Source: a virus
Virus record (IMG/VR): IMGVR_UViG_3300032282_004797
Coordinates: 1 to 55,939 of that record
Direction: 5' to 3' (one strand)
DNA length: 55,939 nucleotides
The translations under genes were made by a program, and so were the position numbers. Positions 7,689 through 49,480 of the stretch are shown here, in pieces. The notes below the pieces were generated by a model, which did no database searches, was not told where the DNA came from, and saw nothing but the letters and a program-made list of their open reading frames with translations. Each line of letters opens with the position of its first letter. The stretch's first letter is position 1.

Positions 7689-10600
7689 ATGGCCGAATAC
7701 AAAATATCCCTTGAAGAAATAGAAAAGTTTTTAAATGGACACGATGATGAAAAATACATCGTGAATGTTGAGTATGACGCTGAAACAAATTTAATCCATA
7801 AAATTAAACAAGACCCTGAAAAAGGTAGCTGCGTTGAGACAGAACCATTATTGGCTTTTATGTGGATTAAAAACCTTAATAAGGTTAAGGAATTAACCAA
7901 TTTTTACGGTAACAGTGATTCGAAGATTAAATCCGCTAGACAAAGGTTTGGTATTGAAATCAAGTCTTTGGGTGGTGACCACCCTAAATTACTAGAGGGT
8001 TATAGGTATTTAGTTACCTGCAATCAAGGTAATAAAAGAATGTTAGATTTCTTCAGAGAAGGCGGTATCTATGTCTATGATACAAGAAATGATATTAGAT
8101 CACACTTTTTGATGATATCACCTGTTGAACAATATTTTATACACACAGGTAAACGTTTGTTTAAAGGTTTTGAAGAATATGATGATATTCATAAATTTGT
8201 ATTTGACTTAGAGACAACTGGTTTAGATCCAAATATTAATAGGATATTCTTGATCGGTATATATACGAATAAAGGTGCTAAAGAAATTATACCTGTTGAA
8301 GATGATGATGAATCCGAAAGACAAGCAATCACAAAATTCTTTGAGGTTATCAATAAAATTAAACCAACAATCATCGCTGGTTATAATAGCGCTAACTTTG
8401 ACTGGGATTTCTTTTTTGTCCGTTGCCAAAAACTTGGATTAGATATTCAAGACATCGCTATAACACTTAAACCAGGTGAACTTATCCAAAGAAAAGAGAA
8501 AAGTATTCTTAAACTTGGTAATGAAGTAGAGGAATACACCCAAACTAATATGTTTGGTTATAGTATTATTGATATCATTCACTCAGCTAGACGTGCACAA
8601 GCAATTGATTCAAGTATGAAATCGGTTGGTTTAAAGTACGTTTGTAAGTATAATAAGATTGCAAAAAAGAATCGTGTTTACATCGTTGGTGATAAGATTG
8701 GTAACACGTGGTATTCAAAGGATAAGTTCTATTTTGATGACAGAACTGGTGCGTATACAAAAACAAAACCAGCTTTAGAGTTTATGGATTATATCCGTAG
8801 AGAAGATGTCCAAGCTAATCCAGATAAAGTATTTGTTTTTGGTGATAACATGCTTAGACAAGGACTTGGTGGTCAGGCAAAAGAAATGCGTGGCGAACCA
8901 AATGTTATTGGTATTGTAACTAAACATTCACCAGAATCGAATCAAGAGTCTTATTTTAATGACAAAGATTTTGATAATCTTAAAAAATATATTGATGCTG
9001 ATATTAATCAGGTAATTGAAAAGATTAAAGAGGGTAAAACTATTGTGTTCCCTAAAATGGGTATTGGTACAGGTTTGGCTCAATTAGATATGAGAGCACC
9101 AAAAACTTTCAAATATTTAGTGGGTTTATTACGTGCATTACGTGATTATATTAACTCTTTTCAGGAAGTTGATGGTAAATACATTGTCGAGCGTTACTTG
9201 GTTGATGACTTATGGGAAACGATGGAAGTTGATGCCGTTTACAACCAATCATCATTCTTATTAGCTAAATTGGTACCAACAACATACCAAAGGGTTTCAA
9301 CAATGGGTACCGCTGGTTTGTGGAAGTTATTAATGATGGCTTATTCTTTTGAGAATGATTTGGCTATACCAGTATCCGACACAAAAAGAGATTATACAGG
9401 TGGTTTATCAAGATTATTTAAGGTAGGTTATTCAACCACTCTAAGAAAGATGGACTACAACTCACTTTATCCAGCTATTCAGTTGGCTCATGATGTATTC
9501 CCAAGTGTTGATGTTAACGGTGCCATGAAATCGATGTTAAAGTATTTCCACACTGAACGTTTTAACGCTAAGAGATTATCTGACAAGTACAAAAAAGAAG
9601 GTAATTACCAATTAGCTGACAAATATAAACGTAAACAGTTACCACTTAAGATCTTTATTAACTCGATGTTCGGTGCCCTTGGAGCACCAATGGCATTCCA
9701 ATGGGCTGAAATCGATGTCAGTGAACGTATTACATGTACGGCAAGACAATATCTTAGGTTGATGGTTACATTTTTTGTTAAACGTGGTTACACGCCTTTG
9801 GTACTTGATACAGATGGTGTAAACTTTATGGCCCCTAAAAACGGTGAGCACTATACATATATTGGTAAAGGGTTAAACGATGAGGTGGAAGCTGGTAAAG
9901 AATATACAGGTGTTAAAGCTATAGTCGCTGAATTTAACGATACGTACATGCGTGGTGAGATGGGCCTTGGTTTGGATGGTATTTGGCCAGCAACCATAAA
10001 CCTATCAAGAAAAAACTACGCTTTATTAGAGGATGATGGGTCAATCAGCTTAACTGGTAATAGTATTAAATCAAAAGCTATGCCTGTTTATATTGAAGAG
10101 TTTTTGGCTAAAGGTATGAAAATGTTATTGAATGGTTATGGTTATGATTTTGTTCAATATTACTACGAATACGCTGAAAAGGTGTGTAATAAACAAATAC
10201 CGTTGGCTAAGATTGCAACAAAAGCTAGGGTTAAGAAATCAATAAACGGTTACATAAATCGTGGTGGTGACAAAAACGGTAGACAATTAGCTAAACAAGC
10301 ACACATGGAATTGGCTATTAAACATAATCTTGATGTTAATCTTGGTGATACCATTTATTATGTTAATAACGGTAAAACAAAATCACATGGGGATGCCCAA
10401 GAAGATAAAAATGGTGAAATGTACGCAACATTGGTACCAAATGATATCATTGAAAACAAACCAGATTATATTGGTGAATATAATGTACCTAAATATTTGG
10501 AAGCTTTAAATAAAAAAGTTGAACCGTTATTAGTTGCATTTTCTCTTGAGGTTAGAGATAAAATTCTTATTAAAAAATCTGGTGAAAGAACAATGTTCCT

Positions 10601-10790
10601 AAGATCTGAATTAGATTTGGTAAATGACCAACCAACAGATATCGAAGATCAGGATACATTAGAAGAATTTTTTACACCATCTCCAATGGAAAAAGAATTC
10701 TGGGCTAAAATGGAATATGAATCAGATTATTGGTTTTCAGATCAAATAACATTCAAAATACCAGGTTTGGACGAAGAATTTACGGTTTAG
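7689..10790 (+). CDS. Family B DNA polymerase (gp43-like) with an inserted domain
   Basis: A 1033-residue replicative polymerase with proofreading. Exo I is FDLETTG (D173, E175), Exo II is YNSANFDWD (D238) and Exo III is YLVDD (Y503, D507). Polymerase motif A is DYNSLYP (D589), motif B is KIFINSMFGALG (about residue 654), motif C is LDTDG (D707, D709) and the KxY-type motif is RKNY. All catalytic acids are present, but motif C has Gly where DTDS is usual. About 115-130 residues (roughly 360-490) are extra, placed between Exo II and Exo III. They carry NPDKVFVFGDN, LRQGLGGQAKEMRG and FPKMGIGTGLAQLD, the signature of a small phage domain known as a stand-alone protein (DUF7831-type, macro-domain-like in look). 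Without it the enzyme would be close to T4 gp43 in length. It is transcribed from its own host-type promoter. Confidence 0.97.
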   Translation: MAEYKISLEEIEKFLNGHDDEKYIVNVEYDAETNLIHKIKQDPEKGSCVETEPLLAFMWIKNLNKVKELTNFYGNSDSKIKSARQRFGIEIKSLGGDHPKLLEGYRYLVTCNQGNKRMLDFFREGGIYVYDTRNDIRSHFLMISPVEQYFIHTGKRLFKGFEEYDDIHKFVFDLETTGLDPNINRIFLIGIYTNKGAKEIIPVEDDDESERQAITKFFEVINKIKPTIIAGYNSANFDWDFFFVRCQKLGLDIQDIAITLKPGELIQRKEKSILKLGNEVEEYTQTNMFGYSIIDIIHSARRAQAIDSSMKSVGLKYVCKYNKIAKKNRVYIVGDKIGNTWYSKDKFYFDDRTGAYTKTKPALEFMDYIRREDVQANPDKVFVFGDNMLRQGLGGQAKEMRGEPNVIGIVTKHSPESNQESYFNDKDFDNLKKYIDADINQVIEKIKEGKTIVFPKMGIGTGLAQLDMRAPKTFKYLVGLLRALRDYINSFQEVDGKYIVERYLVDDLWETMEVDAVYNQSSFLLAKLVPTTYQRVSTMGTAGLWKLLMMAYSFENDLAIPVSDTKRDYTGGLSRLFKVGYSTTLRKMDYNSLYPAIQLAHDVFPSVDVNGAMKSMLKYFHTERFNAKRLSDKYKKEGNYQLADKYKRKQLPLKIFINSMFGALGAPMAFQWAEIDVSERITCTARQYLRLMVTFFVKRGYTPLVLDTDGVNFMAPKNGEHYTYIGKGLNDEVEAGKEYTGVKAIVAEFNDTYMRGEMGLGLDGIWPATINLSRKNYALLEDDGSISLTGNSIKSKAMPVYIEEFLAKGMKMLLNGYGYDFVQYYYEYAEKVCNKQIPLAKIATKARVKKSINGYINRGGDKNGRQLAKQAHMELAIKHNLDVNLGDTIYYVNNGKTKSHGDAQEDKNGEMYATLVPNDIIENKPDYIGEYNVPKYLEALNKKVEPLLVAFSLEVRDKILIKKSGERTMFLRSELDLVNDQPTDIEDQDTLEEFFTPSPMEKEFWAKMEYESDYWFSDQITFKIPGLDEEFTV

Positions 10791-34391: not shown

Positions 34392-36203
34392 TTGTCGAAA
34401 CAAATTACAGATAAAAAAGAGTTACTATTAGAGTATGCAAAATGCTCTCAAGATTTTTGTTATGTCATAGAAAGTTATTTTGAGACTTTTGATAAAACCA
34501 GAGAGGGTTATGTCCCTTTTGAACTTTTTGATGGTCAAAAAAAACTTGTTGCTAATTATAAAAAACATAGATTTAATCTAGTTTTAAAATATCGCCAGGC
34601 TGGTATCTCAACGGTTACAGCTGCGTATTCCGCTGTACTTACAGCTTTTGCTAGTCCAGATAGACCTGAAAAAGTTTTGATCCTTGCAAATAAACAGGAA
34701 ACAGCAATTGAGTTCCAGAACAAAATCATTAACTTTATTAAACAATTACCTGATTGGGTAAATGTTTCGTTTGATAAATCATCACAAAAACACGTTAGAT
34801 TATCTAACGGTTCCGAAATTAAAGCCGTTGCTACATCCCAGGATGCCCTGCGTGGTTATACACCAACTGTTTTGTTAATTGATGAAGCCGCTTTCGTTGA
34901 AGGTGGTCAAGAGTTATGGACAGCGTGTTTGGCCTCAATTGGTACTGGTGGTAAGGCTGTATTAATTTCAACCCCTAATGGGTTAGATCCAATTTATTAC
35001 GCTTCATATGAAGGTGCTATCAAAGGTGATAACAGTTTCTGTGTTACACACTTAAAATGGTGGCAAGATCCACGATTCAACAAAGATTTACGTTTAATTA
35101 AAACTAAAGATATTGTTGATTGGATTCAAAAACCAGCATCTGAAAAAGATGAAGATATTATTGAATCGGTTATTGATTTACACCTAGATGTTATAAATAA
35201 ATTTATTACTGAAGGGTATAAACCACACTCCACATGGTATGAAAACATGTGTAGGGATATGAACTTTAATAAACGTATGATCAACCAAGAGTTGGAATGC
35301 GCCTTTATTGGTTCTGGTGATAACGTTATTGAGGGTGAGGTTATTAGAAAACAAGAACAAGAAAATGTCATCGAACCAATTGTTAAAGACAAAGCCTGGG
35401 ATAGTAATTTATGGATATGGAAATTACCTGAAAAGGGTCATAGATATATCTTAGCACTTGACGTATCTCGTGGTGATTCTGAGGATGCTACTGGTTTGTG
35501 TATTATTGATTATGATACGTTTGAACAAGTATTGGAATATCATGGTAAAGTCCCACCAGATGTAGCCGCATTAATTGTGGATCAATACGGTAGGATGTAT
35601 GATGCCCTATCAACATTTGATATCACAGGTGGTATGGGTATAGCGTCAACACAAAAACTTAAAGAATTAAATTACCCTAAAAAACTATTACACTACGATA
35701 AAGAGGGTGATAATAACAGCATGTATTTTATACCAGATGAAAACTCAATCCCAGGTATAAATTTTGCATCAAAAAATAGAAGAAGTCAAATTGTGGCTGC
35801 TTTAGAAGAAGCTGTTGCCAGAGGTGGTTTTAAGATCAGAAGTGAGAGGTTAACAGCTGAGTTAAAAAAATTCGTTTATAAGAACGGTAAACCAGACCAT
35901 ATGAAAGGTTCACATGATGATCTTATTATGGCCCTTGGTATGTGTTTATTTGTGGCAAACACATCATTTAAAAGATTACAAGAATCAGATAACATGACCA
36001 GAGCTATGTTAGATAGTTGGAAGATAACAACTAATAACGTAAAAACGGATGCGGACTATTTATTAAGAGATGTAACTAGCTCACCAAACCCAGATAAATC
36101 GTATTATAATTCGGATGAATTTGCTACAAATAATAATATGATGAACACAAAGGAATTTGGTTGGTTATTTGGTGTAATGAAACCTAAAAATAAAAATAAT
36201 TAA
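34392..36203 (+). CDS. Terminase large subunit (gp17-like)
   Basis: A 603-residue DNA packaging motor. The ATPase has the T4-like deviant Walker A KYRQAGIST (R68 to T74), Walker B VLLIDEAAF (D164, E165) and the coupling motif LISTPNG. The nuclease has ALDVSRGDSEDATG (D357) and SHDDLIMAL (D509, D510), the RNase H-like metal ligands. It pumps DNA through the portal and cuts concatemers. The start is unusual: a TTG codon, because a TAG stop in frame is 4 nt upstream and no ATG is near. A 12-codon ATG frame (34376-34414) overlaps it in another frame. Confidence 0.95.
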   Translation: MSKQITDKKELLLEYAKCSQDFCYVIESYFETFDKTREGYVPFELFDGQKKLVANYKKHRFNLVLKYRQAGISTVTAAYSAVLTAFASPDRPEKVLILANKQETAIEFQNKIINFIKQLPDWVNVSFDKSSQKHVRLSNGSEIKAVATSQDALRGYTPTVLLIDEAAFVEGGQELWTACLASIGTGGKAVLISTPNGLDPIYYASYEGAIKGDNSFCVTHLKWWQDPRFNKDLRLIKTKDIVDWIQKPASEKDEDIIESVIDLHLDVINKFITEGYKPHSTWYENMCRDMNFNKRMINQELECAFIGSGDNVIEGEVIRKQEQENVIEPIVKDKAWDSNLWIWKLPEKGHRYILALDVSRGDSEDATGLCIIDYDTFEQVLEYHGKVPPDVAALIVDQYGRMYDALSTFDITGGMGIASTQKLKELNYPKKLLHYDKEGDNNSMYFIPDENSIPGINFASKNRRSQIVAALEEAVARGGFKIRSERLTAELKKFVYKNGKPDHMKGSHDDLIMALGMCLFVANTSFKRLQESDNMTRAMLDSWKITTNNVKTDADYLLRDVTSSPNPDKSYYNSDEFATNNNMMNTKEFGWLFGVMKPKNKNN

Positions 36204-36217
36204 AACAATTAAACAAA

Positions 36218-36457
36218 ATGGCAAATGTAATTAAACAAGGTAGAAGCAGCGGACCAGGATCAACATCAATTATTAGAACCGCTGACCCAAAAAATTTGGA
36301 TAAAAAAGATGGTAGAGCATTACAAAGAAATGTTGATGCTATCAAATGTTCACCAGAATCAGATGGTACAACAACATATGTACAAAAAAAAGAATGGGAC
36401 GAAGCTGTGGAAAATTATAAATTTCCACCTTATGTTTCATGCGAATACGTAAATTAA
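36218..36457 (+). CDS. Small hypothetical protein between TerL and portal
   Basis: A 79-residue protein, not recognised. It has a Gly/Ser/Arg-rich start and a YVQKKEWDEAVENYKFPPYV helix near the end. Short proteins at this place in T4-like genomes are often minor head components. It starts 14 nt after TerL; the portal gene follows 6 nt later. Confidence 0.57.
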   Translation: MANVIKQGRSSGPGSTSIIRTADPKNLDKKDGRALQRNVDAIKCSPESDGTTTYVQKKEWDEAVENYKFPPYVSCEYVN

Positions 36458-36463
36458 AAATAT

Positions 36464-38317
36464 ATGGCAGATAATAGATTAACAATATTCCAAAGATTAA
36501 ATAAGGTTCTCGGCAATGAAGTCGATGGGCCAAAATATGTCATTGACCCAAGTTCATTCAACGGGTTAAGTGGTAATGATTTGGAACAAAAAAAATTAGA
36601 GGCGCAGCAAACGCTATACTTACAAAATCAGTGGAAAAAAATTGATAACGAACTTTACCAAAAAGCCGTTTATTACGAACCAACAAGAATTGCATCATAT
36701 TATGATTATGAGGCTATGGAATATACACCAGAAATTTCTGTTGCGTTGGATATCTTTGCTGAAGAAGCTACAACAGCAAATGAAAACGGTAAAGTTTTAA
36801 CAATTTATTCTGATAGTACCAGAATCAAAAAAGAATTAACAGATTTATTTGAAAATGTGTTAGATATTAACGCTAACCTTACATCTTGGGCTAGAAACGT
36901 ATGTAAATACGGTGATAACTTTGTTTACAATAAAATTGTACCTAACCAAGGTATTATTGGTGTAACTCAGTTACCAAATATTGAGATGACCAGATCTGAA
37001 CCTGGTTTTTCAAAAGTTACAAGTTTAGGTGACCAACAAAAAGAGAAGAACATTAAATTTTTCTGGAAAGATAAAAACGTTGAATTTAATTCATTTGAAA
37101 TTTCCCACTTTAGATTACTTGGTGATGATAGAAGATTACCTTACGGTACATCAATGCTTGAAAAAGTAAGAAGAATTTGGAAACAATTATTACTATCTGA
37201 GGATGCGATGTTAGTATATCGTGTTACCAGAGCACCAGAAAGACGTGTTTACAAAGTATTCGTTGGTAACATGGATGATAAAGACGTTGATGCTTATGTT
37301 GATAAAATTGCCAATAACTTCAAAAGGGTTAATATGGTAGATAATAAGAATGGTCAACAGGATACACGTTATAACGCATTAGCTGTCGATCAGGACTATT
37401 TTATCCCTGTTAGGGATCCAAGCCTTGCAATGCCAATTGAGACGCTTCCTGGGGCTCAAAACTTATCAGAAATAGCTGACATCGAATATATCCAAAAGAA
37501 AATGTTAGCTGCTCTTAGAGTACCCAAAGCTTTTATTGGTTTTGAAGAAACTACTGGTGATGGTAAAAACTTGGCCATCCTTGACGTTCGTTTTGCGAGA
37601 GCTGTACATAGAATACAAAAAGCTCTTATTCAAGAGTTAAATAAAATGGCCATTATCCATTTATATACCAAAGGTTTTACAGATGATTTAGAAAACTTTA
37701 CGTTAACATTAACAAGCCCATCCACTCAAGCCGAAATGCTTAAAATCCAAAACTGGAAAGAGAAGGTTACGTTATATCGTGACGCTGTTTCTGACGCTGG
37801 TAACGGATTCTCAGCTATGTCAATGACTTATGCTAAGAAAGAAATCTTAAACATGAGTGATGATGAGATTAAACTTGATATCCAAAGACAAGCTGTTGAA
37901 AAAGCTGGTGGTGAAGAGCTTAAATCATTGGGTGAAACTATTAAACAAACTGGTATATTTAGAGATATCTATAAAATATACAAAATTGACCCTAATAACA
38001 TGACACTTGGTGATACTGGTGCTAGTGCTGGTGCTGCTACGACTGGTGGTGGCGGTGGTGGTATGGGTGATATGGGTAGTGGTGAAACCGCTGGTGGAAC
38101 CGATTTTACAACACCATTAGAAGTTCCAGGAGCTGAGGCTGGTGCTGAAATACCAGGCCCTGAAACAGGTGCCGAAACCCCAGAAACGGCTGCTGAATTA
38201 CCAGGCGCTGAAGAACCTTTAGCAGAAATAACCAAAAGAAAATTAGATGCTAAAAATAAGTTAATCAACGAAGCTCTTAAAAAAACAATTGATGAAATTG
38301 ATGATTTATTAGTATAA
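36464..38317 (+). CDS. Portal protein (gp20-like)
   Basis: A 617-residue portal subunit; twelve copies form the DNA gate. EAMEYTPEISVALDIFAEEA, KYGDNFVYNKI, GTSMLEKVRRIWKQLLLSEDAM, YRVTRAPERRVYKVFVGN and LRVPKAFIGFEE are the conserved gp20 blocks. The C-terminal 110 residues carry a Gly-rich run (GGGGGGMGDMGSGETAGG) and an Ala/Pro/Glu-rich repeat region that is probably disordered. T4 gp20 is 524 residues, so this extension is extra. It is translated after TerL in the same late transcript. Confidence 0.96.
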   Translation: MADNRLTIFQRLNKVLGNEVDGPKYVIDPSSFNGLSGNDLEQKKLEAQQTLYLQNQWKKIDNELYQKAVYYEPTRIASYYDYEAMEYTPEISVALDIFAEEATTANENGKVLTIYSDSTRIKKELTDLFENVLDINANLTSWARNVCKYGDNFVYNKIVPNQGIIGVTQLPNIEMTRSEPGFSKVTSLGDQQKEKNIKFFWKDKNVEFNSFEISHFRLLGDDRRLPYGTSMLEKVRRIWKQLLLSEDAMLVYRVTRAPERRVYKVFVGNMDDKDVDAYVDKIANNFKRVNMVDNKNGQQDTRYNALAVDQDYFIPVRDPSLAMPIETLPGAQNLSEIADIEYIQKKMLAALRVPKAFIGFEETTGDGKNLAILDVRFARAVHRIQKALIQELNKMAIIHLYTKGFTDDLENFTLTLTSPSTQAEMLKIQNWKEKVTLYRDAVSDAGNGFSAMSMTYAKKEILNMSDDEIKLDIQRQAVEKAGGEELKSLGETIKQTGIFRDIYKIYKIDPNNMTLGDTGASAGAATTGGGGGGMGDMGSGETAGGTDFTTPLEVPGAEAGAEIPGPETGAETPETAAELPGAEEPLAEITKRKLDAKNKLINEALKKTIDEIDDLLV

Positions 38318-38330
38318 TAAGAAAATAACC

Positions 38331-38340
38331 GATATTTATA
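38331..38340 (+). promoter_or_regulatory. Late-promoter-like motif GATATTTATA
   Basis: An exact copy in the 39-nt gap after the portal gene, 16 nt before the ATG at 38357. Confidence 0.62.
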
Positions 38341-38356
38341 TAAAAATATTAAACAG

Positions 38357-39070
38357 ATGTTTGGACAATTAAAAGAAAGTATTCTTTCAAATCTAGAAAA
38401 AACTTACCAAGAAAAAGGTGAAAAAGATTTTAAAAAGTCTTTTTCTATGTATGTTAAGGTATTAAAAGAAAATAATGTATTAAGAGAATTTAATGAGGTT
38501 TACAACTTATTAAATACAATAAAATTCGAAAACGAGGATATCGCAAAAGAGTTTGTTGAAGAGTCTATTACACATTTAAAAACTTTTGATTTAACAAAAG
38601 TTGATGCGTTAAAAACTTTAACCGAAAATATTGTTATTGTTAATAATGTGATTAATGAAAGCATAGATCAGCTTGTTTTTAACAAAAAACTATCATTGGT
38701 TGATAAAGTTAAACATAAAACAAACTTAGTTAAACATTTAACAAAAGTTGATGAGGATATTGTCTCAATAAAAGAGTCAATAGATAAAATCAATGAAAGT
38801 TTAGCCGATAAAATTTCAAAATTAAATGAAGAACAAGTTAAAGTTTTAAATTTATTTGCAGAAAATGATGAATCAGCTATTAATGGTTATTATAGCACAT
38901 TAATTGATAGTACTCAAGATATGGTTGAAAAAACCATAAATAAAGCTGACGATATTATTGTTGTTAAAAAATTATTAGAAGTTAGGTCAAAATTAAATGA
39001 AATGAAAAATCAAAAACCATCTTTAGAGGTTATTGATAATGTTCTTGACTTAAAGAAAAGTTTCGAGTAA
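38357..39070 (+). CDS. Helical late protein next to portal, head-assembly candidate
   Basis: A 237-residue, Lys/Glu/Asp-rich protein with long predicted helices (ESIDKINESLADKISKLNEEQ) and no hydrophobic segment. It is not recognised. A helical charged protein between portal and protease in T4-like phages would suit a prohead-core or vertex role (gp67 or gp68 type), though the size is larger. It is the last gene before a perfect terminator. Confidence 0.6.
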   Translation: MFGQLKESILSNLEKTYQEKGEKDFKKSFSMYVKVLKENNVLREFNEVYNLLNTIKFENEDIAKEFVEESITHLKTFDLTKVDALKTLTENIVIVNNVINESIDQLVFNKKLSLVDKVKHKTNLVKHLTKVDEDIVSIKESIDKINESLADKISKLNEEQVKVLNLFAENDESAINGYYSTLIDSTQDMVEKTINKADDIIVVKKLLEVRSKLNEMKNQKPSLEVIDNVLDLKKSFE

Positions 39071-39092
39071 ACACACATTTAACATAAAAAGT

Positions 39093-39124
39093 AAAGCCAG
39101 GGTAGCGAATCCTGGCTTTTTTTT
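39093..39124 (+). terminator. Rho-independent terminator, end of packaging block
   Basis: AAAGCCAGG (39093-39101) and CCTGGCTTT (39111-39119) pair perfectly around GTAGCGAAT, then T to 39124. It lies between convergent genes. On the minus strand the same stem would be followed by TACTTTTT, so it may work weakly both ways. Confidence 0.85.
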
Positions 39125-39152
39125 GTCCCATAACTGGAACGGTCCTAAAACA

Positions 39153-39165
39153 CCGCTTATAGCGG
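39153..39165 (-). terminator. Possible weak terminator of the leftward membrane-protein gene
   Basis: CCGCT-TAT-AGCGG is a perfect 5-bp hairpin, followed on the minus strand by TGTTTTAGG. It lies 7 nt after the stop of the leftward gene. Confidence 0.35.
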
Positions 39166-39171
39166 AATATC

Positions 39172-39480
39172 TTATTTGGTTTCCTCAACCGCAGTATCCT
39201 CAGTAGCAGCTGACGCTTCAGCATTTGATTTTGCTATTGATACTTTGTGACCAGTATAGTTTTTATAACCAATTAAAGCAGCCCCAATCATAGTAAAAGC
39301 TACCGCTTGATTAATTACGTCCATATTCTTGTCAATGAACATTTTATCAACCACCCCTAATAGGAATGATAAACAGCCAATCATTACGATGATAAAGCCT
39401 GATGTTGATGTTACAGATGTTTTTCCGTCTGGGTTCGATGTCATTTCACCGAAAGACCATTTTTTGATGTCTACTTTCAT
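39172..39480 (-). CDS. Small two-helix membrane protein, holin-like candidate
   Basis: A 102-residue protein with two hydrophobic segments: GFIIVMIGCLSFLLGVV (residues about 28-44) and AVAFTMIGAALIGY (about 60-73). They are joined by a short acidic/basic loop, with an Ala/Glu/Thr-rich tail after the second. This is the layout of small holins or other phage membrane proteins. It is the only leftward gene in the 33-53 kb part and has its own late-type motif, so it is expressed with virion genes but separately. A head- or tail-bound membrane protein is equally possible. Confidence 0.6.
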   Translation of the reverse strand: MKVDIKKWSFGEMTSNPDGKTSVTSTSGFIIVMIGCLSFLLGVVDKMFIDKNMDVINQAVAFTMIGAALIGYKNYTGHKVSIAKSNAEASAATEDTAVEETK

Positions 39481-39496
39481 AATGTGTGTGTTTAAT

Positions 39497-39506
39497 TATA
39501 AATATC
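39497..39506 (-). promoter_or_regulatory. Late-promoter-like motif GATATTTATA (leftward)
   Basis: The minus strand reads exactly GATATTTATA, 16 nt before the ATG at 39480. It is the clearest evidence that the motif is oriented with its gene. Confidence 0.62.
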
Positions 39507-39531
39507 TAAAATTTGTTTTAATGAACTTTTT

Positions 39532-39549
39532 TTCTTATTATTATAAGAA
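39532..39549. repeat. 7-bp inverted repeat in the gap before 39586
   Basis: TTCTTAT-TATT-ATAAGAA is a perfect A/T-rich hairpin. It lies in the divergent gap of 105 nt, where I see no plus-strand TATATTTG or ATATTTAT motif. It may be an operator or leader element. Confidence 0.3.
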
Positions 39550-39585
39550 GAAATAATAAAATATACTAAAACATGAAAAAACAAA

Positions 39586-40035
39586 ATGCAATGCAAATTC
39601 GGGAAAGAAAAGAAACTCTTTACAGACGAGAGATTTCGAGTTAAATACGGTACAATTGATGCCGTAAAATTAAACGCTATTTATTTAAATATTGAGTCAT
39701 GGGTACAACCCAGGGAAATAGATAATTACGATTCATACATTAGATTAATGCGAAGAGAAATTATTGTTAAAATAAAAGATGGTATCGACATAACAACGTT
39801 TAATGAAAATTTCATTGTCGATCTGGATTTAAGGGCTTCAGGTATGTCATTAGATAAAAAAAGTTTTATGTTCATTGAGTTAACGGTATACCCTAAGGAA
39901 AAATTAAAATTTAATTCAACTTTAATGTTTAAAAAAATGCAAGAATTGTCTAATCTTATGATAGAATCTTTAGAGCAAAATAAACTAACCTTTTTTTCAA
40001 AAAAATCAAATGCTAGATCCAGAAGACTTATATGA
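39586..40035 (+). CDS. Hypothetical protein in the head module
   Basis: A 149-residue protein, not recognised. It has alternating beta-type stretches (AIYLNIESWVQPRE, MRREIIVKIKDGI, FMFIELTVYPKEKLKF) and a basic C-terminus. The first ATG at 39573 is in another frame that stops after 23 codons, so I use 39586. It overlaps the AAA+ ATPase gene by 26 nt, implying joint translation and perhaps a shared complex. Confidence 0.6.
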   Translation: MQCKFGKEKKLFTDERFRVKYGTIDAVKLNAIYLNIESWVQPREIDNYDSYIRLMRREIIVKIKDGIDITTFNENFIVDLDLRASGMSLDKKSFMFIELTVYPKEKLKFNSTLMFKKMQELSNLMIESLEQNKLTFFSKKSNARSRRLI

Positions 40036-40933
40036 GATGTCCGCAGAGGATGGACAAGAAATGCTTAAAGAGCATTTTGATAAAATTTACCCATCAATCG
40101 AATCTTGGTATACAATAAACAACACAGATTTCTTTTTTAACTTTAAAACTATTGCTACTGTTGAATCTGGTTTATATACTATGATATATAACGATAATAA
40201 CGGTTTTGGTGTTTCAAAATTAAATTATAAAAGCGATGAATTTTTTCATCTGCCGTCACTACCACATAATGAAATCATTGGTGATTTAATTAAGTTTTGG
40301 GATAATGTGGATAGGTTTAAAAAATATAACTTAACACCTAAAAGAGGTATTATATTACACGGGGATCCAGGTTGTGGTAAAACATCATTAATTTATCTTT
40401 TAGTTGATAAATTAAAAGAATACAACGGTCTATCAATCTATTTTGATAACCCATTTAATTGGGTTGAGTTGGCTAAACTAGTCAGAAAAGTGGAGAAAAC
40501 AAGACCATTACTTTGTGTTATTGAAGATATTGATCTTGTAATACAAAAGTTTGGTGAGGAAGTATTTTTAAATTTCTTAGATGGTTTAAACTCAATAGAT
40601 AATGTTGTTTATGTTGCAACAACGAATAATTTAGAGAAAATACCAGCTAGGATTAAAGACAGACCATCCAGATTTGATAAGAAATATAAAATAGAAAAAC
40701 CAACAGCAGAAGATAGAAAGATTTATTTTACTGAAATATTGGATGAAGAGGATAAAAAAGTATATGATATTGATAAATTAGTTAAAGATACTAATGGTTA
40801 TACCATGGCACATCTTAAAGAAACTTTTATTTCACTATATATCCTTAAAAATCCGTATGATGAGACTATTAAGCGATTAAAGAACAAAAAAATTGCTGAT
40901 GAGCGAATTGGATTTGACCTTTCTAACGATTAA
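40010..40933 (+). CDS. AAA+ ATPase
   Basis: A 307-residue protein with one AAA+ domain: Walker A HGDPGCGKTS (G123-K124-T125), Walker B CVIEDID (E172-D175), sensor 1 VATTN, and PSRFDKKYKIEKP with arginines fit for fingers. The first 90 residues are an unknown N-terminal domain that probably recognises the substrate. The domain resembles BCS1/FtsH-type remodelers. T4 has no AAA+ protein between portal and protease, so this may be a head-assembly remodeler or chaperone of this lineage. The gp21-like gene starts 50 nt later from its own motif. Confidence 0.85.
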   Translation: MLDPEDLYEMSAEDGQEMLKEHFDKIYPSIESWYTINNTDFFFNFKTIATVESGLYTMIYNDNNGFGVSKLNYKSDEFFHLPSLPHNEIIGDLIKFWDNVDRFKKYNLTPKRGIILHGDPGCGKTSLIYLLVDKLKEYNGLSIYFDNPFNWVELAKLVRKVEKTRPLLCVIEDIDLVIQKFGEEVFLNFLDGLNSIDNVVYVATTNNLEKIPARIKDRPSRFDKKYKIEKPTAEDRKIYFTEILDEEDKKVYDIDKLVKDTNGYTMAHLKETFISLYILKNPYDETIKRLKNKKIADERIGFDLSND

Positions 40934-40956
40934 CTCGGTATTTAACTTGTTTTCAT

Positions 40957-40966
40957 TATATTTATG
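40957..40966 (+). promoter_or_regulatory. Late-promoter-like motif TATATTTATG
   Basis: It matches the late motif at the core ATATTTAT and lies 17 nt before the protease ATG. It also resembles a -7 box TATATTTA with the last G missing, and no TTTG lies 19 nt upstream, so I favour the late class. Confidence 0.45.
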
Positions 40967-40983
40967 TAATATAATCTATTGAA

Positions 40984-41697
40984 ATGGGTATAAAAATATT
41001 AAAAGAAAACGAAGAAGGTTTTGGTATCTTAATTGAAGGTGATGCTGGTTCAGTATCTGAGGTATTACAAGGACAAATTATAAATGAGGAAATTAGTAAG
41101 GGTTCAATAGATTTATCTGGACCCATATACTATTATGCCACATTACAAAAATATGGTGTTGAAAACAGAAATGGTAGAGTATATCCAGAAGACATCTTAA
41201 GAAGAGAGGTTGAAAACTATAGAGAGGTTATTGCTCGCAACTCTAGTTTTCATGAATTAGATCACCCACAAGAATCAGTTATATCACTTAAAGGTGGTTC
41301 ACCGCACAGAATAGTAGATATGTTCTGGAAAGATAACGTTCTTATTGGTAAATTGGAAATATTAGTATCTGAAGGTTTTAGAAGAGGTGGTATCATATCT
41401 TGTAATGGTGATTTAGTTGCACATTACTTAAGTTATGGCATGACGTTAGGTATTTCATCTAGAGGTGTTGGTAGTCTTAAAAAGATTAACGGTAAAAATG
41501 TTGTACAAGGGGATTTTGAATTAATATGTTGGGACATTGTTTCTTCACCATCAACACCTGGCTCTTATTTATATAAAGACCCACAAGATTTTAAAAAATA
41601 TGACGAAGTTTTGAGTGAACCAAAGGAAATTGAGGAGAGCGCAGCCCCAGAAGAAGACAGTTTTTTAGCTAATCTTAATAAATTTTTGAAGTTTTAA
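40984..41697 (+). CDS. Prohead core protease (gp21-like)
   Basis: A 237-residue serine protease that trims head proteins during maturation. HELDHP (H90, H94) and GISSRG (S158/S159) are the conserved His and Ser regions of the gp21 (U9/S77) family. The long loop YYYATLQKYGVENRNGRVYP is also typical. The acidic C-terminus (PKEIEESAAPEEDSF) is probably removed or used for core contact. It starts from ATG 40984. Confidence 0.93.
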   Translation: MGIKILKENEEGFGILIEGDAGSVSEVLQGQIINEEISKGSIDLSGPIYYYATLQKYGVENRNGRVYPEDILRREVENYREVIARNSSFHELDHPQESVISLKGGSPHRIVDMFWKDNVLIGKLEILVSEGFRRGGIISCNGDLVAHYLSYGMTLGISSRGVGSLKKINGKNVVQGDFELICWDIVSSPSTPGSYLYKDPQDFKKYDEVLSEPKEIEESAAPEEDSFLANLNKFLKF

Positions 41698-41751
41698 GTT
41701 GTTTTTTTAAAAAATTTTTATTACTATTATAACAATTAAAAAATATTTTTT

Positions 41752-41991
41752 ATGAAAACATACTATTGGTACACCGTAGCGATTCAATTTGTGATTGAAG
41801 ACGAACAAACAGGTAAAATTAAAAAAATTAAAGAAAATTACATGACTAAAGCAATTTCAATAACAGACGCAGAAGCTAATGTTATCAAGGATTTGGAAGG
41901 GTACATGGGTGATTACAGAATTTTAAATTGTGCCGAATCTAAAGTTGTTAGAGTTTTAATTCCAGAAGGCGTTGATGTCAATGCTGAATAA
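41752..41991 (+). CDS. DUF4494-like small protein
   Basis: A 79-residue protein: YYWYTVAIQFVIEDEQTGKIKKIKENYMTKAISITDAEANVIKDLEG, and a closing AESKVVRVLIPE. This matches the DUF4494 family, which is found almost only in Bacteroidota and their phages and has no known function. It is placed between the protease and the scaffold and is followed by a terminator. It supports the host assignment. Confidence 0.72.
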   Translation: MKTYYWYTVAIQFVIEDEQTGKIKKIKENYMTKAISITDAEANVIKDLEGYMGDYRILNCAESKVVRVLIPEGVDVNAE

Positions 41992-42015
41992 GTTACGGCC
42001 TTAAAATGTATTAAA

Positions 42016-42043
42016 AACCATCCACATCGGGTGGTTTTTTTTT
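42016..42043 (+). terminator. Rho-independent terminator after the DUF4494-like gene
   Basis: AACCATCC (42016-42023) pairs with GGGTGGTT (42029-42036), one T-G wobble, loop ACATC, followed by T to 42043. Confidence 0.82.
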
Positions 42044-42114
42044 GTTTAACCCCCGTGTAATATGACTTAATAAGAATATTTTTTTATTTTTTTTGTTCTT
42101 TTGATATTTTCATA

Positions 42115-42124
42115 GTATTTATTA
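42115..42124 (+). promoter_or_regulatory. Late-promoter-like motif GTATTTATTA
   Basis: The same sequence as at 4472-4481. It lies 41 nt before the scaffold ATG, so the leader would be longer than at other late genes. The leader contains GATAATATATC, a short palindrome. Confidence 0.4.
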
Positions 42125-42165
42125 CTAAGATAATATATCATAATAATTTTTTAATAAATTAAAAC

Positions 42166-43452
42166 ATGAGCAAGACAAATATTTTAGCAGAAACTCTAGC
42201 TGAAATTCAAGAACTAAGAGAAGCTGTTTCTAAAAACGCTAACCATGCGTTGAAAAGCACCCTTAAAGAAGAATTAGAAGAAATTGTCAAAAACAACCTA
42301 GAGGAAGTTAATGACGAAGAGTTAACAGATGACATGCCTGGTGATAATCTACCAGGTGATCAAACAGCAAATAATGATGACGGTATGGGTGATATGCCTG
42401 CTGAACCACAAGATGGTGAAGAGGTTATCGATTTAACCGACAAATCAGATGAGGATGTTATTAATCATTTCAACCTTATGGAACCTGCTGATGAGATCGA
42501 AATCGTACAAACCCCAGAAGGTGGTGTACAAATCAACATCAAAGCCAAAACTGAAGACGAAGAATCTAAAGAAGATTCTGAAGAAGCGCCAGTAGCTACT
42601 GATGATGAGGAGTATAAAACTGAACCAATGGAAGAAATTGTTGATGAAACGGTTGAAATGAAAGAAGAGCCAGTGTATGAGATTGAAATCTCAGAAGAGG
42701 ATCTTAACGAAGTTGCTAAGGAAGCTACAGCTCACATGACTACTAAAGGTGGATCAGTTCCAACAGGTGAAAAGAAACTTGAGGAACCATCTAAAGAAAA
42801 TGGTGTGATCAAAAATGCGGCTACCAAACACATGACTACTAAAGGTGGATCAGTTCCAACAGGTGAAAAGAAACTTGAGGAACCATCTAAAGAAAATGGT
42901 GTGATCAAAAATGCGGCTACGAAAGATATCCAAGAAAGTACACAAAATAAGGCTGGAAACAAAAACAAAGAAAAAGAGTTACATGAAAGCTTGGTAGTTA
43001 TGAGAAAAAAATACCAAGAAACAGTGGCTGAAAATAATAAAAAGACTCAAGAGTTAGATAGCTTTAAAACTTTAGCGGAAGAATTTAAAGGTTCTGAAAC
43101 TGAATATAAATCAGCTATCAAAAATCTTAAGTCTCAGTTACAAGAAGTTGCTTTGTTCTCATCAAACTTAACTTATGCGATCAAATTGATTACTGAAAAC
43201 TCTACAACTAAGGATGAAAAATTCAATATCCTTAAAAGATTCGATTCAGCTAAAAACTTAAACGAGTCAAGAGAAATCTTTAACAGTTTGCAAGATCAGT
43301 TAGTTTCTGGTAAAACAGCAACAAAACAAGTGATTGAAGACAAAATTATGGAAAGTCCAAAAGCTAGTGGTTCTTCAAAATTAAATGAATCAACTGCTTA
43401 TCAAAATCCACAATTATCAAGAATGTTGGATATCATCGGAAAAATTAAATAA
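42166..43452 (+). CDS. Prohead core/scaffold protein (gp22-like)
   Basis: A 428-residue, highly acidic and helical protein directly between protease and major capsid, as T4 gp22 is. The N-terminal 140 residues are mostly Asp/Glu. Residues about 190-253 hold two tandem copies of a 32-residue unit starting HMTTKGGSVPTGEKKLEE. The C-terminal half is coiled coil (ESLVVMRKKYQETVAENNKK, then a helix with SAIKNLKSQLQEVALF). No sequence identity to gp22 is claimed; the call rests on position, composition and coiled coils. Confidence 0.75.
   Translation: MSKTNILAETLAEIQELREAVSKNANHALKSTLKEELEEIVKNNLEEVNDEELTDDMPGDNLPGDQTANNDDGMGDMPAEPQDGEEVIDLTDKSDEDVINHFNLMEPADEIEIVQTPEGGVQINIKAKTEDEESKEDSEEAPVATDDEEYKTEPMEEIVDETVEMKEEPVYEIEISEEDLNEVAKEATAHMTTKGGSVPTGEKKLEEPSKENGVIKNAATKHMTTKGGSVPTGEKKLEEPSKENGVIKNAATKDIQESTQNKAGNKNKEKELHESLVVMRKKYQETVAENNKKTQELDSFKTLAEEFKGSETEYKSAIKNLKSQLQEVALFSSNLTYAIKLITENSTTKDEKFNILKRFDSAKNLNESREIFNSLQDQLVSGKTATKQVIEDKIMESPKASGSSKLNESTAYQNPQLSRMLDIIGKIK
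42733..42924 (+). repeat. 96-bp tandem duplication within the scaffold gene
   Basis: Copy 1 is 42733-42828 and copy 2 is 42829-42924. They differ at one base near the end (CTACC versus CTACG). The period is 96 bp, so the frame is kept. Such near identity at DNA level, including third positions, points to a recent duplication. Confidence 0.95.
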
Positions 43453-43485
43453 TAAATAAAAAAACTTAAAAAAAAAAATACTAAA

Positions 43486-45081
43486 ATGGGAGCATTATTA
43501 GAATCAGGAAAAGTTGGTAACGTAGGTTTAAATCACTTAAAAAGCGTACGTACTGACGTAATTAACAGATGGGACAGCTTAGGACTATTAGAAGGTCTTG
43601 CTGGTCACAGAAAAGAGAATATCGCACAATTATTTGAAAACCAAGCATCACACATGCTTAATGAATCAGTTGCTTTAGGTAACGAAGGTTCTTTCGAAAC
43701 TGTGGTATTCCCAATCGTGAGAAGAGTATTCTCAAAATTATTAGCTAACGAAATCGTTTCGGTTCAAGCTTTAAACTTACCTATTGGTAAATTATTCTAC
43801 TTCATTCCGAAGTTAGATAATTCATCATTTGCTGCTGGTAGCGCAGGTATTCCAAAAACACCTCAAAACGCTGCTGGTACAACATCAAGTACAAACCTTT
43901 ATGATTCTTTCTATGGAGAGAATGGTCTTTATGACAGCTCTAAAGGTCAATATACAGTTTTAACTGGTGCTACAGCTGCTAATATATGGGAATTTAGTTC
44001 ATCAACTACTAGCGGTTATTCACAAGTAGCTGGACCTGTTACAAATTGTCCAATAAGCACAACTTCAATTATCAAAGTTGATTTCGCTGCAAATATTGAT
44101 AACTGGGAAAATGCTGAAGAAGTTATGTCAACATTAAACGTTACATCTGTAACTAGTGGTGCTGACTTTGATTTCTATTTACCAGCTCAAAAATATGGTA
44201 AATCAATCATGGACGCAGATGGTATTGTTTACATCGCAATCGTTAACAATAGTGCTTCTGTAGTATTACCATTGACAGGTTTAACTGTAACAGCTAAAGA
44301 ATACGAATCTTTAGAGTACAATGATCAAATGGGTGAAGTAAGCTTCGAACTTCAATCTGTAACAGTTTCTGTTATCGAAAGAAAGTTAAGAGCTCAATGG
44401 TCTCCAGAATTAGCTCAAGACGTATCAGCGTTCCACAACATTGATGCAGAAGCTGAATTAACAGCTTTATTGTCTGAGCAAGTTGCTGCTGAGATTGACC
44501 GTGAAATCTTAAGAGACTTAAGAAGAGGTGCTGCTTGGAGAATGACTTGGGATTACTCAGCTCAAACTGGTAATGGTGGTATAACTGCTGGTAACGGTTA
44601 CTATACTCAAAAAGATTGGAACCAAACTTTGATCACTGCGATCAACCAAGTTTCTGCACAAATCCACAAAGCTACTTTAAGAGGTGGTGCTAACTGGATC
44701 GTAGTTTCTGCTGAGGTTTCAGCTATCTTGGACGACTTAGAATACTTCCACGTATCTAACGCTGCTCCAGAGCAAGACAAATATAACATGGGTATTGAAA
44801 GAATCGGTTCATTGGGTGGAAGATACCAAGTTTACCGTGATCCTTACTTCCCAGCTGATACAATCTTGATGGGTCACAAAGGTACATCATTATTGGATAC
44901 TGGTTACATTTACGCACCATACGTGCCAATGCAATTAACTCCAACAATGTACAACCCATTCACCTTTGCACCAGTTAAAGGTATTATGACTCGTTACGCT
45001 AAGAAAATGGTTAACAACCGTTTCTATGGTGTAATCAAGTGTAAAAGTATCGTTCAATTCGGTATCACAGGTTTAAGATAA
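43486..45081 (+). CDS. Major capsid protein (gp23-like)
   Basis: A 531-residue HK97-fold capsid subunit, close to T4 gp23 in length. The N-terminal part contains QLFENQASHMLNE and VFPIVRRVFSKLLANEIVSVQ. The middle has ERKLRAQWSPELAQDVSAFHNID and then LLSEQVAAEIDREIL, the best-conserved gp23 blocks. The last third ends PMQLTPTMYNPFTFAPVKG. The N-terminus is probably cut by the gp21-like protease. Codon choice here is shifted to C-ending forms (ttc, aac, atc) compared with neighbours, as expected for a very highly expressed gene. No promoter motif is seen in its 33-nt leader; it is read from the scaffold transcript. Confidence 0.97.
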   Translation: MGALLESGKVGNVGLNHLKSVRTDVINRWDSLGLLEGLAGHRKENIAQLFENQASHMLNESVALGNEGSFETVVFPIVRRVFSKLLANEIVSVQALNLPIGKLFYFIPKLDNSSFAAGSAGIPKTPQNAAGTTSSTNLYDSFYGENGLYDSSKGQYTVLTGATAANIWEFSSSTTSGYSQVAGPVTNCPISTTSIIKVDFAANIDNWENAEEVMSTLNVTSVTSGADFDFYLPAQKYGKSIMDADGIVYIAIVNNSASVVLPLTGLTVTAKEYESLEYNDQMGEVSFELQSVTVSVIERKLRAQWSPELAQDVSAFHNIDAEAELTALLSEQVAAEIDREILRDLRRGAAWRMTWDYSAQTGNGGITAGNGYYTQKDWNQTLITAINQVSAQIHKATLRGGANWIVVSAEVSAILDDLEYFHVSNAAPEQDKYNMGIERIGSLGGRYQVYRDPYFPADTILMGHKGTSLLDTGYIYAPYVPMQLTPTMYNPFTFAPVKGIMTRYAKKMVNNRFYGVIKCKSIVQFGITGLR

Positions 45082-48533: not shown

Positions 48534-49480
48534 AAATTTGTCAAGTACATCCAGGATGCGGAATCCCAGTACCACCACCTAATTGGGGTGCTGTAGAAAA
48601 AATAGTATGGGAATTTACCCAGAATTTAAGATTATTAGGACACGAAGTTGACATTAAATATGCCAATGAGATCCAACCAGGTGAATACGATGTTGTTCAC
48701 GTACATATGGCTAATTTATGCCATTTTTTACATGATAGAGGTATACCATACATTTATCAGTTACATGACCATCATGCATATTATTACGGTAAAGGGTCGT
48801 ATGTTTTTAACCAAAATAATAGGGCTATCCTTGAATCACAGGTATCGTTAATGCCAGGTAAATTCTTGGTACCGTATTTTGAAACAGAAAAAGCGATTTA
48901 TTTTTCGCATGGTGTAAACACAGATTTTTACCACCCATCAGACGTTAGACCAAAAGAACATAAATTATTATGTTTGGCTAATAACGGTTTAGCTGGTATG
49001 GATGGTTATGATAGAAAAGGGTTTGGTTTTGCTATTCAAGCGGCAATGGCAAGAAATTTACCAATTACAATTGCTGGGCCAAGAAATAACCAAAATTTCT
49101 TTAATGAAAATCCATGGGTTAATGGTTACGCTAAATTATCAATCGAATGGGAACCAAATCAAGATGAATTGGTTGATTTATATCACAGACACACAATTTT
49201 TATGCACCCATCTGAATTAGAAGCTGGACACCCTAATTTAACGATATTAGAGGCCGCTGCATGTGGTTTACCGATTAATGGGGCCATTGAGATGGAAACT
49301 GATTTTAATGGTATGTGGAGAGCTCCTAGAAAGGTCACAGAAATTGTACGTGGTTTAGATGACATTATCGCTAATTATGATGGATACCGTGAAAGAGCTA
49401 TACAACACGCTGAATCTTTATCATGGTATAACAGATCAAAAGAATTATTAGAGGTTTACAAACAATACACAGAACAATGA
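48530..49480 (+). CDS. Glycosyltransferase, GT4-like
   Basis: A 316-residue GT-B enzyme. ICQVHPGCGIPVPPPNWGAVEKIVWEF carries the N-terminal glycine/proline loop of GT4. YDVVHVHMAN and FSHGVNTDFYHP are the usual core blocks. MHPSELEAGHPNLTILEAAACGLPI includes the EX7E-type donor site. It overlaps the gene before as ATGA and the carbamoyltransferase after it by 4 nt. Confidence 0.9.
   Translation: MKICQVHPGCGIPVPPPNWGAVEKIVWEFTQNLRLLGHEVDIKYANEIQPGEYDVVHVHMANLCHFLHDRGIPYIYQLHDHHAYYYGKGSYVFNQNNRAILESQVSLMPGKFLVPYFETEKAIYFSHGVNTDFYHPSDVRPKEHKLLCLANNGLAGMDGYDRKGFGFAIQAAMARNLPITIAGPRNNQNFFNENPWVNGYAKLSIEWEPNQDELVDLYHRHTIFMHPSELEAGHPNLTILEAAACGLPINGAIEMETDFNGMWRAPRKVTEIVRGLDDIIANYDGYRERAIQHAESLSWYNRSKELLEVYKQYTEQ

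Follow-up and report, generated by a model that had tools for sequence, protein, structure and literature searches.

A DUF7831 domain inserted ahead of Exo III in a phage family B DNA polymerase, with a macro-like predicted fold and a candidate ADP-ribose pocket

The window, a stretch of 55,939 nucleotides of viral DNA that was analysed as a whole, encodes a family B DNA polymerase in which Exo I to Exo III and polymerase motifs A and C are present with their catalytic acids, and in which a complete DUF7831 domain lies between Exo II and Exo III. The insert is a retained part of the protein that changes fast between some lineages. We tentatively infer that it binds or hydrolyses ADP-ribose in aid of replication, countering DNA ADP-ribosylation of the DarT type.

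Results

A domain inserted in the polymerase

A Pfam scan of the polymerase ORF placed DNA_pol_B_exo1 and RNase_H_2 before DUF7831 and DNA_pol_B after it. The gene and its motifs are arranged as follows, with the names Exo I to III and motifs A and C being those that we take to belong at these positions.

7689..10790, + strand: family B DNA polymerase gene, an open frame of 1033 aa with Pfam matches
8205..8213, + strand: Exo I, D173-x-E175, invariant in alignments A2 and A7
8385..8408, + strand: Exo II, NSANFDWD including D238, with D238 invariant in A2 and A7
8757..9152, + strand: extra segment, about residues 357–488, missing in relatives (tblastn breaks, MAFFT)
8778..9122, + strand: DUF7831 (PF25176) core, residues 364–478, Pfam E 1e-44, with a confident AlphaFold model
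9195..9209, + strand: Exo III, Y503-x3-D507, directly after the insert, invariant in A2 and A7
9453..9473, + strand: polymerase motif A, DYNSLYP at 589–595, with D589, L593, Y594 and P595 invariant in A2 and A7
9807..9818, + strand: polymerase motif C, DTDG at 707–710 (D707, D709), invariant in A2 and A7

Alignments A2 and A7 include relatives that have no insert, among them the isolates Salinibacter phage M31CC-1 and Nostoc phage YongM. A sequence-only reading of this DNA had held that the frame is intact and that all Exo and Pol motifs are retained; both statements stand, the catalytic residues being invariant even when compared with the insert-less relatives. Its coordinates also agree with the translation, in which the residue strings that it picked out (NPDKVFVFGDN, LGGQAKEMRG and FPKMGIGTGLAQLD) are all present. 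When the whole polymerase was modelled (pTM 0.41), nearly all of the structural alignments listed were to family B polymerases (Z 21.0–13.4).

The DUF7831 match scored 151.6 bits, the curated cut-off being 27, and covered profile positions 2–116 of 118, and PHROG 2072, a family with no named function, matched at the same place in the polymerase. The earlier proposal of a separate DUF7831-type domain is borne out by the E value of the PF25176 match together with the absence of the segment from nine relatives at this place, and the insert is almost certainly a domain in its own right. Removal of the segment leaves a polymerase of ~901 aa; the insert-less relative L031 measures 914 aa from stop to stop.

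The neighbourhood of the gene was surveyed with PHROGs and Pfam scans that covered 30, not all, of the other ORFs in the window. Downstream of the polymerase, genes for the terminase large subunit, portal and major head protein occupy positions 34392–45081, and between these packaging and head genes and the polymerase there are several glycosyltransferase-like genes and an RgpF-like gene. A Nol-like carbamoyltransferase gene (E 3e-94) was found at 49477–51102.

Relatives with and without the insert

Scanning viral contigs with the polymerase yielded 37 loci, and a scan with the insert yielded two further fusions (L062 and L063) in addition to stand-alone and giant-protein copies of DUF7831. 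In tblastn, 26 of these 39 polymerase loci have the whole insert, nine have none and one (L024) ends inside it, while the remaining three (L030, L032, L033) stop short of the insert site and were not judged. At seven of the nine insert-less loci the alignment ends at residues 356–361 and restarts at 489–491; the other two break at 340 and resume at 491 (L037), or break at 356 and resume at 466 (L038). The sequence-only reading had suggested an alignment with related polymerases, and the outcome is thus that 9 of 39 lack the segment at the same place. MAFFT alignment of seven insert-less relatives shows a short loop of roughly 8–20 residues at the site. When the family model was run against 19 phage records, most of which are probably fragments, 12 had one copy in a frame of polymerase length and seven had none.

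No named phage polymerase bearing the insert was among the matches listed in three sequence searches, no polymerase lay under the insert match among the best 60 of 99 phage records, and none lay under it in any of nine plasmid records. One record, LR745206 (634 kb), was considered as a second polymerase fusion and rejected: its ORF is a 405-aa DUF7831 protein with a different C-terminal part, and the match extends past the insert, hence the resemblance to a fusion. The literature searches turned up no polymerase with this insert, and the name DUF7831 was absent from the literature covered, a scope that left out most subscription papers.

Some of the insert-less relatives carry other interruptions. 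In L034, L035 and L036 a different insertion lies at motif C (DTDG), at query positions 707–719, where the window polymerase has none; because the insertion of L035 matches LAGLIDADG_3 it is probably an intein, and that of L034 has no such match. The polymerase genes of L037 (12520–14223) and L038 (6325–8220) are interrupted close to motif C by an ORF matching DUF723, treble-clef models and, weakly, the Mom family. Separately, a NADAR gene was found at G011:C1:94393-94806, in an insert-less relative of 340 kb, and in none of the 12 insert-bearing or six other insert-less records (one positive among 19); no Macro domain was found in the 19 phage records. A complementarity of counter-defences, with the insert set against NADAR or Macro, was considered and dropped, a single NADAR case making no pattern.

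Predicted fold

Modelled alone with 21 family members, residues 355–489 gave an AlphaFold (AF2) model with a pLDDT of 92.0 and a pTM of 0.85, so that structure prediction, one of the checks put forward in the sequence-only reading, returned a confidently folded domain. Its elements run in the order strand, helix, strand, loop, short helix, strand, long helix, strand, loop, helices. Nearly the same elements appeared in the whole-polymerase model, in which block means for the insert were 69–90 pLDDT; because that model is too poor overall, the placement of the insert against DNA is not derivable from it.

A comparison with 994 PDB chains (VIA-align 2) ranked TARG1 (C6orf130) in rows 1–5, with Z 7.4–6.0 over 106–112 aa at an rmsd of 3.5–4.0 Å, followed by the CHIKV macrodomain in row 6 (Z 5.9) and the PARP14 macrodomain in rows 9–10 (Z 5.0), the first unrelated entry being CbiL (Z 5.4); by the program's own note, a Z under 8 can reflect a common arrangement. 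Foldseek, run with the insert against the PDB, gave no match at E <= 0.001, its top row being a dual-specificity phosphatase (E 0.34). In a search of a viral structure library, the insert matched DUF7831 proteins of Tupanvirus, Hyperionvirus, Yasminevirus and two phages (E 1e-14 to 7e-12). The structure search proposed earlier gave TARG1 as the best PDB alignment and nothing in Foldseek at its threshold.

The insert model has four strands against the six-stranded sheet of the macro core described in passages of PMC9503650. Sequence models likewise failed to place the insert among macrodomains: there was no PF01661 (Macro) match in Pfam at E up to 1, no macro family among NCBIfam matches at E up to 10, and no match to the DarG family models NF048014 and PDLC02990 in the NCBIfam and PADLOC scans, and PDB searches with the insert and with profile A4 returned nothing significant. 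Proof of macro homology by sequence was accordingly given up as a candidate claim, since the Pfam, NCBIfam, PADLOC and PDB searches and hhalign with DarG were all without significance. Because the sequence models fail and the model has four strands, we file the protein under DUF7831 and the family B polymerases and not under Macro domain or DarG, like which it may nevertheless work. Of the earlier impression of a macro-like look, what holds is the structural ranking of TARG1, and what does not is membership of Macro by sequence and by strand number. The modelled fold is probably macro-like, of the alpha/beta kind, and its resemblance to TARG1 is suggestive of this, not proof.

Candidate ADP-ribose pocket

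According to passages of PMC5179494, ADP-ribose is bonded in DarG by N8, L9, T20, N22, V31, Q34, T79, G117, G119, N120 and G121, and replacement of K80 by Ala gives an inactive enzyme; as stated in part of PMC9411070, DarG retains the Lys but not the Asp of the TARG1 pair. In the nine DarG rows of our alignment A5 (9 of 20 fetched DarG loci), N22, Q34, T79, K80, G117, G119 and G121 are invariant at these numbers. Candidate equivalents of these residues in the insert are listed below.

8847..8849, + strand: N387, candidate equivalent of DarG N22, in 34/34 rows of A6
8874..8876, + strand: Q396, candidate equivalent of DarG Q34, in 34/34 rows of A6
8919..8924, + strand: T411-K412, candidate equivalents of DarG T79-K80 (catalytic Lys), with T in 34/34 and K in 32/34 rows of A6
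9060..9074, + strand: G458-x-G460-x-G462 loop, candidate equivalent of DarG G117/G119/G121, with the middle G in 34/34 rows of A6

Alignment A6 consists of 34 chosen DUF7831 rows, five of them polymerase inserts whose pockets are intact; because degenerate inserts were deliberately omitted, its conservation figures hold for intact members. When all 27 polymerase inserts were considered, Lys at the K412 position was present in 26 of 27, eight checked positions were all kept in 16 and one or more had changed in 11. The one Lys loss is in L015, whose insert has lost the Gln as well. Since the pocket is intact in early-branching lineages (L022, L062 and L063) and in the window's group, it was probably intact in the ancestor.

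In the insert model the candidate residues lie at the ends of strands, at the start of a helix and in a loop, with T411-K412 at a strand end. In a register that we chose, the insert has a residue of like type at six of the 11 hydrogen-bond contacts of DarG; in that register DarG T20 and N120 fall on Gly and Thr, and N8, L9 and V31 were assigned no counterpart. An Asp partner for the Lys seems to be missing from the insert, as judged on what we take to be the TARG1 register (Lys being TARG1 K84 and DarG K80).

The equivalence of DUF7831 and DarG residues is putative, and profile–profile statistics do not support it. Comparison of DUF7831 with DarG (A5) by hhalign gave P 0.033 (A4) and 0.044 (A3) in two different registers, of which that of A4 pairs T411-K412 with the DarG Lys position and that of A3 does not, neither being significant. 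The A6 profile was also not significant against that of DarG, its score being reached by 14/200 column shuffles and 62/200 block shuffles, the latter a poor null because they preserve the motif blocks; the reversed DarG profile scored 14.8 versus 17.3. The pattern N..Q..TK..GxGxG matched 100 of 2403 distinct ORFs (>= 100 aa), each of which bears DUF7831 or DarG on a reading of the list. This pattern was drawn up after both families had been seen, the ORF set is rich in both, and in at least one protein, L088, the matching stretch lies outside the domain.

Origin and rate of change

Maximum-likelihood analysis of the polymerase flanks, with the insert columns removed, separated 15 insert-bearing from six insert-less rows by a branch with 100/100 support (21 rows: 15 of the 27 polymerases with the insert and 6 of the 9 that lack it; a long branch at L031 drew a warning from the program). 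In a DUF7831 tree of 39 rows, ten polymerase copies formed one group (100/99) among bacterial and viral copies. Because both trees give a single group, the simplest reading is a single capture with descent thereafter: an ancestral phage polymerase gene would have taken up DUF7831 once, in an exonuclease-domain loop just before Exo III, and the frame would have been kept since. The polymerase copies have the GGQAKEMRGEPN length type, as do separate genes of alphaproteobacterial phages. The position of L009 within the clade differs between the two trees, so the module may later have been exchanged between phages.

The insert is retained in frame among polymerases down to 61% identity. Its dN/dS was below 1 in the 20 of 21 pairs for which it could be computed (0.054–0.511, with flank values ranging from 0.015 to 0.26), and lay above both flanks in 16 of the 20 and between them in four, with dS saturated in many. 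In comparisons with L003, L009, L010, L014 and L015, each of the 642 flank windows of equal length is better conserved than the insert; compared with the close relatives L006 and L020 the conservation of the insert equals that of many such windows, and against L022, L062 and L063 it falls inside their range. Fast change of this kind is expected alike of a conflict module, of relaxed constraint and of swapping.

DUF7831 outside the polymerase

DUF7831 also occurs away from polymerases. In phage phiCbK a separate DUF7831 gene (L092:3995-4444) lies immediately after rIIA and rIIB. Among other Caulobacter and Brevundimonas phages, some have rIIB features under the insert match, and matches to the whole polymerase can start there at residue 270. 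Giant viruses, as seen in the viral structure library, carry DUF7831 without a link to a polymerase. In genome contigs, a first scan found no relative and a second scan with another alignment found 75 bacterial or archaeal loci, many of them in Acidobacteriota, Hymenobacter and Methylobacterium; the ORFs of 28 of the 75 were looked at, and three large ones were scanned for domains.

Two giant proteins on viral contigs combine the domain with others, namely L088:1-9960 (3320 aa), which has DUF7831, cpYpsA/SLOG, a 2OG-Fe(II) oxygenase and a NADAR match below threshold, and L074:394-8973 (2860 aa), which has DUF7831 and cpYpsA (SLOG). Passages of PMC9503650 treat SLOG, NADAR and Macro domains, and likewise large polyvalent proteins of phages, as parts of NAD/ADP-ribose conflicts, and the two giant proteins would by our assignment be polyvalent proteins in that sense.

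Among the cellular and stand-alone copies, a 1554-aa protein of a Pyrinomonadaceae MAG (L101:7887-12548) has DUF7831 near its start followed by DUF488, and a 4127-aa protein of a MAG titled as an archaeon (L149:2448-14828) has DUF7831 with a Hint/LAGLIDADG element and an AAA domain. A stand-alone DUF7831 protein (L087:5962-6345) matched the NCBIfam model A1S_2505_Nterm below cut-off (E 0.003), possibly a distant sister family.

Discussion

The job that we propose for the insert would be to bind ADP-ribose and remove it from DNA at the replication fork. Host toxins of the DarT type ADP-ribosylate thymidines of single-stranded DNA, the target of DarT given in parts of PMC11481870 and PMC9411070, and bring the replication of phages to a halt; if the polymerase bore a hydrolase like TARG1 or DarG, this could clear the adduct, or aid its tolerance, in cis, with hydrolysis depending on K412. 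The ADP-ribose ligand, hydrolysis through K412, the DNA substrate and the DarT threat are all putative elements of this scheme. A ligand of the ADP-ribose type is slightly favoured for the insert. De-ADP-ribosylation of DNA in cis is possible and somewhat doubtful, and rather doubtful too is the fuller picture of a built-in enzyme that strips DarT-type thymidine adducts as the polymerase arrives, with the degenerate inserts as disarmed or retargeted alleles. In the phylum of one Hymenobacter that bears DUF7831, 28 of 296 genomes had a DarG score over the NCBIfam threshold, and therefore DarTG is not rare in one candidate host group. In favour of the proposal are the insertion itself, the single group on both trees, the kept frame and constraint, the confident model and the conserved candidate pocket; weighing against it are the absence of PF01661 and DarG matches, Z values under 8, the empty Foldseek search at its threshold, the weak hhalign results, the DarG contacts for which the insert has no like residue, the changed pockets in 11 of 27 inserts, and the faster change of the insert than of its flanks in most pairs and against five relatives.

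The evidence of fold and pocket applies equally to an insert whose nucleotide-type ligand (ADP-ribose, a nucleotide or an NAD-derived signal) is bound but not cleaved, and which would act as a sensor or anchor to move the enzyme between synthesis and proofreading. The position within the exonuclease domain adjoining Exo III, the pairing of DUF7831 with cpYpsA/SLOG in two giant viral-contig proteins and the description of some macrodomains as possible sensors in part of PMC9503650 are consistent with such a role, but an enzyme fits at least as well with a candidate catalytic Lys that is kept in nearly all inserts and A6 rows, and we regard the sensor as unlikely. A captured domain whose role is now mainly structural (spacing, stability or partner binding) and whose old activity is fading in part of the clade would account for the 11 of 27 inserts in which candidate pocket residues are altered but the frame is open, for a dN/dS exceeding both flanks in most pairs, and for conservation below every flank window against five of the ten relatives compared. 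However, all eight positions are kept in the other 16 inserts, including early-branching lineages and the window's group, and the dN/dS of the insert remains below 1, so that this reading also appears improbable.

The polymerase might instead be a mere carrier of the domain, whose target would be something else that is ADP-ribosylated (the polymerase itself, other phage proteins or RNA) or a soluble defence signal derived from NAD. Polymerase-free copies occur in phiCbK, at the 75 bacterial or archaeal loci and in giant viruses, and the basic activity of DUF7831 therefore need not concern replication; retention in a replicative polymerase through the divergence seen here argues for a job at the fork, and we consider the carrier role quite unlikely. 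An intein or other self-removing element can practically be discounted. The window segment ends in ...YIN followed by S, a weak echo of an intein end, but Pfam finds no Hint domain, the end residue varies among relatives (Asn, Asp or Glu) as does the next one (S, T or Q), and seven relatives without the insert have their own short loop there in place of a bare join. The sequence-only reading had seen no intein splice signs, and the missing Hint domain and variable segment ends agree with it.

If the proposed removal of ADP-ribose from DNA at the fork is correct, a counter-defence would be sited within the replication enzyme itself, and there would be a functional handle on DUF7831, a family of phages, bacteria and giant viruses. 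Whatever its activity, a folded foreign domain beside Exo III in polymerases down to 61% identical bears on how much a proofreading domain tolerates.

The window polymerase has Exo I to III and the Pol motifs in common with family B polymerases of the RB69/T4 gp43 type, and RB69 gp43 entries are among its structural alignments, at 14–16% identity; it differs in having ~132 additional residues ahead of Exo III. DUF7831/PHROG 2072 proteins of Caulobacter, Rhizobium, Roseobacter-group and other phages have the same domain, with at most ~52% identity among the records listed, and the same GDN, GGQA, TK and GxGTG blocks, but in the regions opened they are separate genes with no named function, whereas the window copy sits inside a replicative polymerase. 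The TARG1/DarG macrodomains (ALC1-like class) give the best structural alignments and have the order N, Q, T-K, G-x-G-x-G in common with the insert, which is ~30 residues shorter between the Gln and Thr-Lys, has four strands and gives no significant profile match; its seeming want of an Asp partner for the Lys is a trait it would have in common with DarG (PMC9411070, in part).

The degenerate inserts may be likened to the inactive AdfA/AdfB alleles that are discussed for other phages in part of PMC11481870. The passages on phage polymerase domain mosaicism in PMC10684548 name no macro-like or DUF7831 domain, and the gain and loss of domains that they describe is a theme into which the insert fits. 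Polymerase mutations are stated to free phages (T-even phages in one paper) from DarTG in passages of PMC11348598, PMC10684548 and PMC11481870, which rest on LeRoux 2022, one of the three naming bypass of the adduct as the probable cause. Escape from DNA ADP-ribosylation is thus polymerase-borne in the T-even PolB mutants described there, as it would be in the system proposed here: the mutants are thought to permit bypass through alterations of the polymerase itself, whereas in the window polymerase an added module would do the same work.
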